A DNA stretch of 64,000 nt from Candidatus Aquidulcis sp. (GTDB lineage Bacteria > Chloroflexota > Anaerolineae > Anaerolineales > UBA4823): positions 1 to 64,000 of the forward strand of contig DYIZ01000002.1 in assembly GCA_020723385.1 (NCBI GenBank), read 5' to 3'. Shown in pieces: positions 7,569-38,535 of this stretch (the stretch's first letter is position 1; each line of letters opens with the position of its first letter). The notes beneath the pieces are model-generated. The model did not search any database. It worked only from the letters and a program-made list of their open reading frames with translations, and was not told the origin of the DNA. The translations under genes were made by a program, and so were the position numbers.

Positions 7569-10046
7569 ATGCACGCTCGTCAGTTACTTATCATCATCCT
7601 GGTCATCGTGCTGGCATTCTTCGCTGGCGCTGTGCCGGGCATCGCCGGGAGCCGCGCTCTCGCCCAGAGCAGCCCGATGGCTCTTCTAGGTACAGGATTC
7701 ACCTACCAGGGGCAACTCAAAGACGGTAGCGGTGCCCCCATCACCGCGACCTGTGATTTCCAATTCAGCCTGTGGGACGCGGCTGCGGATGGAACGCAAA
7801 TCGGCGCAGTCAGCGCGGCCGCGGGAGTCAATGTCGCTGGTGGCTACTTCACCGCATCCGTCAACGCTGGCGGCGAGTTCGGTGCGTCGGCCTTCGCCGG
7901 CGAGTCGCGTTGGCTGGAGGTGGCGGTGCAGTGCAGCGGCGACACGGTTTATACCACCCTCGCTCCGCGCCAGGCGCTCACCGTCGCGCCGTATGCCGCA
8001 TATGCCGCCGCCGCGCCGTGGAGCGGGTTGAGCGGCGTCCCGGCGGGTTTCGCCGACAATGTGGACAATAACAACACCTATACTGCAGGGGCTGGGCTGA
8101 GTCTGGCCGGTGCGCAGTTCAGCGTGAATTTTGCCGGCAGCGGCAGCGCCGATACGGTTTCGCACAGCGATCACGATCATTGGGGACAGACCTGGAGCGG
8201 CAGCGGCACCGGCCTGGATCTCTCCGGCGGGACGATTGGGGTGTACGCCCGAGGCAGCACCTACGGCCTGCAGGGCGAAAGCAGCGCCACGGACGGTTAC
8301 GGTGTGTACGGCATCGTCACTGCCGCCAGCGGCGCCACCTACGGCGTGTATGGCGTTACCGCCTCGACGGCCGGGCGGGGTGTGTCGGGGTATGCTACTG
8401 CCACCCTCGGCGTCAACTACGGCGTGTACGGCCGCTCCCGCTCGATGGGCGGATACGGCCTGTACGGCTGGGCCAGCTCCAGTACCGGCGCCAATTATGG
8501 CGTATATGGCCTGTCCGACTCGAATACGGGGTATGGTGTGTTTGGCCTCGTCAGCACCACCAGCGGTACCACATACGGCGTATACGGCCAATCCGCCTCG
8601 ACCAGCGGGCGCGGGGTGTACGGCTATGTCAGCGCCACCACCGGGAACACCTACGGCGTGTATGGCCTGGTTGCTTCGGGAAACGGGCGCGGTGTGTACG
8701 GCTACGTCAGCGCCACCACCGGCACCAACTACGGCGTGTACGGCGAGTCCGCTTCGAATTCCGGGTACGGCGTGTACGGGATGGGCAGCAGGGGCGTGTA
8801 CGGCGAATCCGACTCGACCACCGGAAGGGGGGTATATGGCCGGGCAAATACCTTAACCGGCGTAACCTCCGGCGTGCATGGTATATCCGATTCAACCGAG
8901 GGATATGGGGTGTATGGATGGGGTTACTACGGGGTGTATGGAGAATCCGACATGACCTTCGGAAGGGGGGTGTTTGGCCGGGCAAATGCCTCAACCGGCA
9001 TCACCTACGGCGTGGCAGGTATATCCGATTCAACCGAGGGATATGGGGTGTATGGATGGGGTTACTATGGGGTGTATGGCGAGTCCGACTTAACCTCCGG
9101 AAGGGGGGTGTATGGCCGGGCGGCTGCCACAACCGGCGTAACCTCCGGCGTGTATGGTAAATCCGAATCAACCGAGGGATATGGGGTATATGGATTGGGT
9201 CACTGGGGGGTGTATGGCGAATCCGAAACACCCAACGGAAGGGGGGTGTATGGCCTCGGCAGCTATTACGGTGTGTATGGCCGCGCCAGCGGAACAGTCG
9301 GTTCGAACTATGGTGTGTATGGCCAATCTGATTCGACCAATGGGTACGGGGTGCATGGTTACGTCAATTCTACACTCGGGACGAACTATGGTGTGTACGG
9401 TCGGTCTCTCTCGAGCATCGGGTACGGGGTGTATGGTTATATCAGTGCGACAAGCGGTTCGAATTATGGCGTGGCCGGCCAGGTTGTTTCGAGTGATGGC
9501 TTCGGTGTAGCCGGATACACCGGCAACGGCGTAGGTGTGGGGGCCTGGAGCAATTCCAACAATCTGATCGAAGCTTATGATGGCTCATTCCCCACTGGCA
9601 CGTCCCGCTTCTATGTCGAAAACGACGGCGACGTTTTCGCTGACGGCACTTTCAATTCTTTCAAGATTAGCGCCCTCGACGGCGCGAACCATGTCCTGTC
9701 CTCTATGCAAAGCCCTGAAGTGTGGGTGGAGGATTTCGGCCGCGCCGTACTGGTGGAGGGCCAGGCCGTGGTGACCATCGCCCCCGACTTCGCCGGCGTG
9801 GCCAACCTGTCCGCAGATTACCTAGTTTTCATCACCCTGGAGGGCGACTGCCAGGGGGTGTATATTGCCAACAAAACTCCCACTTCGTTCGAGGTGTACG
9901 AGGTGAACGGCGGCAAGTCGAACGTTGCGTTTGGCTACCGCATCGTGGCCAAACAGACCGGCTCGGAAAGCGTGCGCATGCCCGATGTGATACTCCCCGA
10001 GTCGGCGGTGGAGGATAGCCAGCCGCAGGAGGCAGCGCAGCCATGA
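7569..10046 (+). CDS. Secreted YGVYG-repeat protein
   Basis: 825 residues from the ATG at 7569, chosen because AGGAGG sits at 7558-7563, the promoter lies just upstream, and a clear signal peptide follows (about residues 1-33, ending SRALAQ). A beta-rich N-terminal domain (about 37-160, starting [13 protein letters not shown]) precedes about 435 residues (225-660) of about forty short units centred on YGVYG or RGVYG, separated by Ser/Thr/Gly-rich turns. Such periodic Gly-aromatic units suggest a beta-solenoid or fibre. The last 150 residues form a separate domain ([33 protein letters not shown]). Probably a surface fibre. Its stop overlaps the next gene (ATGA). Confidence 0.85.
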
Positions 10047-10327
10047 AACGCAGAACCCTCTTGCTCGCCGCGCTGGTGGTCATCCTGCTGATGGCAACCA
10101 CTGCTGCAGTAGCCCAGATCGCAGGGTATGATCTATCCTGGTGGACTACCGACGGCGGGGGAGGATCGAGCACTGGCGGGAATTACCAGTTGGGTGGAAC
10201 CGTCGGCCAGCCGGATACGGGCACGCTGACGGGTGGGAATTACCGCCTCGAGGGCGGCTTCTGGGGTGGGGGCGCTGGCGGCGCTCCCCCGCCCTCTTCG
10301 GTGTATCTGCCGTTGGTAAGAAGATGA
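10043..10327 (+). CDS. Small secreted protein with C-terminal VYLPLVRR motif
   Basis: 94 residues. The ATG overlaps the upstream TGA (ATGA), implying translational coupling with the YGVYG-repeat protein. A signal peptide ends near TAAVAQIAG. The core has two similar Gly-rich segments, [18 protein letters not shown] and [17 protein letters not shown]. The protein ends with a short Pro/Ser linker and SVYLPLVRR. From memory, many secreted Chloroflexi proteins end in a YLPLV-type motif; a sorting or anchoring role is inference. It may be a partner or capping subunit of the upstream fibre. Confidence 0.75.
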
Positions 10328-28475: not shown

Positions 28476-28526
28476 CCAACTGTCAACTGTCAACTGTCAA
28501 CCGTCAACTATCAACTGTCAACTGTC
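28476..28526. repeat. Tandem 7-mer array, caactgt
   Basis: Seven consecutive heptamers (caactgt with variants caaccgt and caactat) run in one direction without a complementary arm. The array encodes the last residues (QLTVDS) and stop of the adjacent HAD phosphatase gene. Confidence 0.88.
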
Positions 28527-29124: not shown

Positions 29125-29219
29125 GTCAGTAATCAGTGATCAGTTATCAGTTATCAGTTATCAGTTATCAGTTATCAGTTATCAGTTATCAGTGATCAGT
29201 CACTGATAACTGATAACTA
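29125..29219. repeat. Tandem heptamer array, atcagtt, with inverted end
   Basis: About ten consecutive copies of atcagtt/atcagtg are followed by a short complementary arm (cactgataactgataact). Words are the same as at 22648-22733. It encodes the C-terminal tail SYQLSVTDH and stop of the HAD gene 29189-29824. Confidence 0.92.
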
Positions 29220-37400: not shown

Positions 37401-38535
37401 GGCCGATCCCAACTCGCTCACCGGGCAGTATCTCTCGGGCAAGCTGCGGGTTACGGCGCCTAATGGGCAGGCGGCGCCTAACGGACAGGCGGCGCCTAAC
37501 GGACAGGCGGCGCCTAACGGACAGGTGCGCCGCTCGCCTTCCGGCTGGCTGACCATCCACGGGGCGCGGCTGCACAACCTAAAAAACCTGGAGGCGCGCT
37601 TCCCCCTGGGGACGCTGACCTGCATCACCGGGGTCAGCGGCTCCGGCAAGAGCAGCCTCATCGCCCAGACGTTGTACCCCGCCCTGATGCGGTCGCTCCA
37701 TAATTCTCAGGTCTCTCCCGGTCCACACGACAAAATCGAGGGGCTGGATCAACTGGATAAGGTGGTCAATATCACGCAGGAACCCATCGGGCGCAACCCG
37801 CGCTCCAATCCCGGCACCTACGTCGGCGCGCTGGACGAGATTCGCAAGGTGTTCGCCAGCACGCCGGAGGCCAAAGCCTTGGGCTACGGGGCGGGGCGTT
37901 TCAGCTTCAACGTCAAGGGCGGGCGCTGCGAGGCCTGCGTTGGTTACGGCTCCAAGCGGGTGGAGATGCACTTCCTGTCGGATGTGTGGGTCACGTGCAA
38001 GGAATGCGGCGGCAAGCGCTTCAACTATCAGACCTTGAACATCCTCTACAAAGGCAAAACCATCGCCGATGTGCTCGACATGGACGTGCAGCAGGCGATG
38101 GAATTCTTCGCCCCCTACCCGCACATCAACCGCATCCTGCAAACGCTTCACGATGTGGGGCTGGATTATCTCAAGCTCGGGCAGAGCGCCCTGACTCTCA
38201 GCGGCGGCGAAGCCCAACGGGTCAAGCTGGCCAAAGAGTTGAGCGCGGTCGCCACCGGGCGCACGATCTATATCCTCGACGAACCCACCACCGGCCTGCA
38301 TTTCGCCGACATCCAGCGGCTGCTGGATGTGCTTCACCGTTTGACTGACGCGGGGAACACCGTGATCGTGATCGAGCACAACCTGGATGTGATCAAAACC
38401 GCCGATTGGGTGCTCGACCTCGGCCCCGAGGGCGGCGACGCCGGCGGGCGAATCGTGGCCCAGGGGACGCCCGAAGCGGTAGCGCAGGTCGAGGCGAGCT
38501 TTACGGGCAAATATTTGAGAGAAGTGTTACATTAA
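34489..38535 (+). CDS. uvrA: Transglutaminase-like domain fused to excinuclease UvrA
   Basis: 1348 residues in one uninterrupted frame. Residues 1-352 hold a transglutaminase-like/cysteine-protease domain: Cys97 in [20 protein letters not shown], His134 in GDHWITEYW, Asp151 in LCDADIGG, then a helical region. From about 354 ([15 protein letters not shown]) the rest is complete UvrA: two ABC ATPase halves ([14 protein letters not shown] at about 381; [16 protein letters not shown]; a second [29 protein letters not shown]) and three zinc modules, including CEAC...CKEC. UvrA finds bulky DNA lesions with UvrB. An internal ATG at 35545 (codon 353) would give a normal-sized UvrA but has no ribosome-binding site. 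Two repeat insertions lie in the UvrA part (36186-36265, 37456-37527). Confidence 0.93.
36186..36265. repeat. Palindromic word array, cccctatccctta / ataagggataggg, inside uvrA
   Basis: The left arm cccctatcccttatcccctt faces the right arm gggataagggacaggggata around a short loop. It is the same kind of word palindrome as the intergenic arrays but in frame, adding about 25 residues ([20 protein letters not shown]) absent from E. coli UvrA at this site. Confidence 0.88.
37456..37527 (+). repeat. Four 18-bp tandem repeats inside uvrA (APNGQA)
   Basis: gcgcctaa(c/t)gg(a/g)caggcg is repeated four times head to tail, encoding four APNGQA hexapeptides in the linker between the two ATPase halves. 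Near-identity of the last three units suggests recent expansion. Confidence 0.92.

Follow-up and report, generated by a model that had tools for sequence, protein, structure and literature searches.

An overlapping pair of genes in Candidatus Aquidulcis sp. encodes a long exported repeat protein (ORF1, the fibre) and a small exported protein (ORF2, the partner), and genes of the same two types were found linked in three phyla, where the partner keeps a conserved core and its C-terminal tail differs by phylum. It is this fibre–partner pairing that is new. We consider it rather more likely than not that a small adaptor, whose tail is specific to the lineage, takes hold of the N-domain of a fibre like the Bdellovibrio mosaic adhesive trimer (MAT) fibres and so keeps that fibre on the cell surface.

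The DNA analysed (hereafter the window) comprises 64,000 nucleotides, positions 1 to 64,000 of the forward strand of contig DYIZ01000002.1 in assembly GCA_020723385.1, and its source is placed in Chloroflexota; Anaerolineae; Anaerolineales; UBA4823 (GTDB). The features of the locus are as follows.

7569..10046, + strand: ORF1, fibre coding sequence, ATG at 7569 and TGA at 10044-10046, 825 aa (ORF listing, translation)
7569..7667, + strand: ORF1 putative signal peptide, about 33 residues ending ALAQ (hydrophobic stretch after basic residues, read by eye)
7689..8006, + strand: ORF1 conserved N-domain, MAT-N-like, about 105 aa (profile match, NF053851, AlphaFold2 pLDDT)
8301..9545, + strand: ORF1 predicted beta-helix stalk, 34 G-[VLI]-[YFHAS]-G turns (sequence count, AlphaFold2, fold search)
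8796..9255, + strand: ORF1 138-bp super-unit, 3.3 copies, recent tandem expansion (TRF, identities)
9705..9953, + strand: ORF1 predicted C-terminal tip domain, similar to the R2-pyocin fibre tip (AlphaFold2 pLDDT about 90, match to 6cl6)
10043..10327, + strand: ORF2, partner coding sequence, ATG at 10043 and TGA at 10325-10327, 94 aa (ORF listing)
10043..10046, + strand: ATGA overlap of ORF1 and ORF2 (sequence)
10043..10117, + strand: ORF2 putative signal peptide, about 25 residues (read by eye from the sequence)
10124..10264, + strand: ORF2 conserved core, 47 aa, W..DGGG..GQPDxG..GGFW (profile match, conservation in three phyla)
10298..10324, + strand: ORF2 YLP-box, C-terminal VYLPLVRR (above the NF053834/NF050076 cut-offs)

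The original prediction described two genes joined by an ATGA overlap, both encoding exported proteins, the second of 94 residues with SVYLPLVRR at its C-terminus. The overlap and the ORF2 product were borne out by the coordinates above, and the signal-peptide-like starts of both ORFs point to export. Behind its start, ORF2 runs from the 47-residue core through a linker to the YLP-box.

Fibre repeats, predicted fold and relation to MAT fibres

The 34 turns of ORF1 span residues 245-659, and the motifs GVYG and YGVYG occur in total 25 and 17 times. The predicted figure of about forty YGVYG units was thus somewhat high. The turns are spaced by 14 and 12 residues in alternation, giving a period of 26 aa or 78 bp, and the expanded part contains five turns of 8 or 9 residues. 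The super-unit of 138 bp corresponds to 46 aa or four turns, and its three full copies share 83-88% DNA identity, which confirmed the recent expansion proposed for the region around 8800-9250. The TRF scores of the ORF1 arrays (314 and 659) are far from chance. Other tandem repeats in the window are the heptamers TCAGTTA (10.7 copies, 29126-29200) and CAACTGT (7.1 copies, 28477-28526) and an 18-bp unit at 37454-37525 (4 copies, 96% matches).

Structure prediction of the YGVYG repeats, which the original prediction had proposed, was run with AlphaFold2 on a 28-row alignment (mean pLDDT 63; N-domain mostly 92-97, part of the stalk about 80, tip about 90). In the resulting model, which is of moderate confidence, the stalk is a right-handed beta-helix similar to trimeric phage tailspikes. 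Foldseek matched it to 7eea (E = 3e-4; Z = 13.9 in a second structural comparison), and tailspikes scored Z = 11-14, including that of 9NA (Z = 12.5, rmsd 4.5 over 305 residues). The predicted tip matched the tip of the R2-pyocin fibre (6cl6) with Z = 7.2 and rmsd 2.7 over 76 residues, a score in the range where a common arrangement is possible. Weaker matches among viral models included the phage-tail beta-sandwich family LtfC/p132/Gp6. As a fibre, ORF1 would probably be trimeric. The partner modelled alone gave two hairpins at a poor pLDDT of 52.

The likeness of ORF1 to trimeric phage tailspikes (Pam1, Sf6, HK620, 9NA) and to the R2-pyocin fibre thus concerns the stalk and the tip fold as modelled; unlike the tailspikes, ORF1 is a bacterial gene with a signal peptide. 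A phage or prophage origin of the fibre was unsupported, as the N-domain had no match in 50,697 phage records and the partner was absent from viral contigs. Pfam returned no match for ORF1 or ORF2, and sequence searches of the PDB yielded weak matches at best when the whole fibre was the query and no match with the N-domain profile or with the tip.

As judged from profile matches, the fibre N-domain is distantly related to the MAT N-domain of Bdellovibrio. In an NCBIfam scan, 48 of 70 N-domains matched Bdello_MAT_N (NF053851; best E = 1.7e-10), compared with 3 of 70 for the next family, and all six weak Bdello_MAT_N matches in the own genome sit on these fibre N-domains. ORF1 itself scored 17-23 bits, under the curated cut-off of 60 bits, and is accordingly not filed in that subfamily. 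The MAT fibres of Bdellovibrio bacteriovorus, in the portions of the MAT paper considered here, have a signal peptide, a conserved beta-rich N-domain, a beta-helix body, exchangeable tips with and without S74, and many paralogues per genome (PMC10769870). ORF1 likewise has a predicted beta-rich N-domain straight after the signal peptide, where the MAT domain is about 130 aa (AlphaFold2 beta domain, NF053851 matches), and the fibres have a predicted beta-helix body and exchangeable tips of S74 and non-S74 kinds, S74 being found in an ORF1 paralogue. By its architecture of N-domain, beta-helix and exchangeable tip, ORF1 would resemble a MAT fibre, and as far as those portions go the two fibre types agree in part order and in having many paralogues per genome, and their N-domains are remotely homologous. 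They differ in phylum, and the same portions make no mention of a small tailed partner (PMC10769870).

Linkage of fibre and partner genes

Profile searches of the own genome identified 15 fibre N-domains in 11 clusters, and each cluster also contains a single partner (11 in all). Ten clusters open with a fibre gene and one (C132) with the partner; the partner is usually the last gene, and the distance between fibre and partner ranges from overlap to about 90 bp. Fibres of different clusters have little in common beyond the N-domain: their stalks and tips vary (beta-helix VYG, YadA-like rolls, S74 chaperone with a C-terminal transmembrane helix, IGKAL-type tip and others), while the partner type is constant. 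Because the partner type does not change with the tip, its target should be the N-domain. The distances of N-domain and core were correlated over the 11 paralogue pairs (r = 0.72, 13 of 5000 permutations), a pattern also expected from duplication of the pair as one operon.

Related small proteins of 88 and 108 aa are encoded upstream of fibre clusters, beside large regulator-like genes (L017:5857-6123 and L019:3739-4065). At four loci (L017:734-2737, L149:6902-8974, L071 and L108), the fibre C-terminus consists of a coiled coil, a transmembrane helix and a basic end. In L017:734-2737 an S74 chaperone domain precedes this end, and cleavage by S74, if it takes place, would leave the chaperone part in the membrane and set the fibre free.

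A scan with the partner yielded 80 named loci. A same-strand fibre lay within 3 kb of the partner in 42/51 cases in Chloroflexota, 13/18 in Planctomycetota and 15/20 in Armatimonadota, and 12 of the 19 partners lacking such a fibre are at contig ends. Overlaps of 4 bp between the two genes were seen in all three phyla, and no ORF among the relatives' loci fuses the N-domain with the core. Linkage of the two genes in relatives, on which the original prediction depended, therefore holds in three phyla. Across 21 genomes (the own genome and 20 relatives), the fibre was found in 8 and the partner in 8, with 7 in common; the fibre-only genome (G001) and the partner-only genome (G012) each have a divergent counterpart next door, that of G001 being weak (E = 0.011). 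Among 81 genomes of the phylum, some of which are not independent lineages, the fibre occurred in 10, and the partner occurred in exactly these 10, apart from one partial match of 18 residues. Within the stretches examined, some fibres have no partner (L151, L152, L154, L155, L156, L160) and some partners have no fibre (L162, L164, L169); these would need to act at a distance.

The pair is also present in a cultured organism. Herpetosiphon aurantiacus DSM 785 carries, on plasmid pHAU01, a fibre of the ORF1 type (Haur_5099) with a partner ORF directly behind it (L149, 8971-9258). This ORF has its start in an ATGA overlap and its product ends FLPAAIRGD; it is absent from the portion of the PLSDB gene table for pHAU01 considered here. 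The next gene, Haur_5100, has a YLP-type end (AYLPLTTRGE). In Fimbriimonadales, the fibre gene is separated from the partner gene by a third conserved gene (L095:6302-7861, L113:6261-7820, L131:3781-5403), the product of which is about 520-540 aa long and has the C-terminus MRIEACGG.VRIGAP or a similar one.

Partner tails in three phyla

The 47-aa core is conserved over the three phyla, and the tail that follows it differs between them. When tail classes were assigned by regular expression, YLP tails were found on 48/51 partners in Chloroflexota and dockerin-like tails on 15/18 in Planctomycetota and 19/20 in Armatimonadota, with no crossing. The dockerin type I family (Dockerin_1, PF00404), which is absent from ORF2, matched the tail of a Planctomycetota homologue above the cut-off (L083); other partner tails matched below it (L086, L095, L112, L100), those of Armatimonadota being under the cut-off, and two gave no match (L142, L107). 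Neither kind of tail was found on any fibre (0/86 examined). Complementarity, in which partnerless fibres would bear a tail of their own, was tested among the fibres examined and not found. The distribution of the tails suggests that the YLP-box and the dockerin-like tail may do equivalent jobs.

The dockerin-like tail of Fimbriimonadales is generic, as the YLP-box is in the own genome: this 54-aa tail was counted 92, 79 and 63 times in the three genomes G021, G022 and G023 (the genomes of L086, L097 and L117). Cohesin had no match in these three Armatimonadota genomes and five matches in one planctomycete.

In ORF2, VYLPLVRR lies at the extreme C-terminus, up to the stop codon, and scored above both NCBIfam cut-offs (16 vs 10 bits and 15.7 vs 15 bits; NF053834/NF050076). 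The ending itself is not new, since NCBIfam already lists the YLP-box as a putative sorting motif; the entry names the motif only. The term 'YLP-box' was not found in the literature searched, and no description was found of its link to a fibre–partner module or of its replacement by dockerin-like tails. In the stretches of the own genome examined, which were picked for holding YLP sites, 55 genes end in YLP, and a signal-peptide-like start, scored by a simple hydrophobicity rule, was present in 42/55 of these, compared with 84/195 neighbour genes (P = 1.4e-5). Nine of the remaining 13 are cut by the stretch edge. The expected enrichment of YLP-type ends among exported proteins therefore holds.

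Possible role of the partner

In the arrangement that we propose, ORF1 would be a surface fibre with its N-domain next to the cell and a C-terminal tip that can be exchanged, the two joined by a beta-helix stalk of G-V-Y-G turns. ORF2, exported together with it, would be a surface adaptor, the 47-residue core of which binds the conserved N-domain, and which is fixed to the cell surface by its own C-terminal tail, a putative anchor (here the YLP-box). In the partners of Planctomycetota and Armatimonadota, dockerin-like domains would be the surface-fixing tail, and adhesion may be the purpose of the whole. Fixation of the fibre to the cell by the partner is the simplest account because the fibres are tailless, the partner pairs with them regardless of tip, and the tail is the one common in the lineage. 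We are more tentative, at a little under even chances, about the wider proposal of a fibre-display system common to three or more phyla. In such a system, a conserved adaptor of 47 residues would dock the MAT-type N-domain, and the anchor would vary with the lineage.

The original prediction of a fibre plus anchor or cap is supported in its first alternative, which best fits the three-phylum linkage, the tail swap and the 0/86 tailed fibres. A partner that caps or decorates the distal fibre end might be expected to be small and encoded beside the fibre's C-terminus, as ORF2 is; however, the tips are unrelated among fibres with one partner type and only the N-domain is common to them, so that we regard a cap as very improbable. 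The same constancy bears on an assembly factor or chaperone for the fibre, such as the products of the small genes that follow phage tail-fibre and R-pyocin fibre genes. Here the gene order is alike, a large fibre gene followed straight downstream by a small and often overlapping one, and the stalk and tip are phage-like in the model. Phage fibre chaperones are cytoplasmic and work on the C-terminal tip, whereas ORF2, unlike the tail-fibre assembly (Tfa) chaperones, appears from its signal-peptide-like start to be exported and is independent of tip type; a lineage-specific C-terminal tail would also be needless for such a factor. We therefore consider this reading unlikely. Of nearly the same standing, if slightly less improbable, is a secreted surface or matrix protein independent of the fibre, with which it would have only the operon and its regulation in common. 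The partner does stand alone at some loci (L162, L164, L169), its core also opens a larger protein of 682 aa (L023), and the genome encodes many other exported proteins, unrelated to one another, with the same YLP end, but the co-occurrence in 81 genomes, the one-to-one clusters and the three-phylum linkage exceed the usual effect of common regulation.

If the partner is indeed the adaptor that holds the fibre, it would be a candidate for the element on the cell surface to which MAT N-domains attach, and the YLP-box would gain a function. The binding target of the N-domain on the cell is left open in the portions of the MAT paper considered here (PMC10769870), and the linkage to the partner makes this question directly testable. 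The presence of the pair in the cultured Herpetosiphon aurantiacus DSM 785 provides an organism in which the proposal can be tested.
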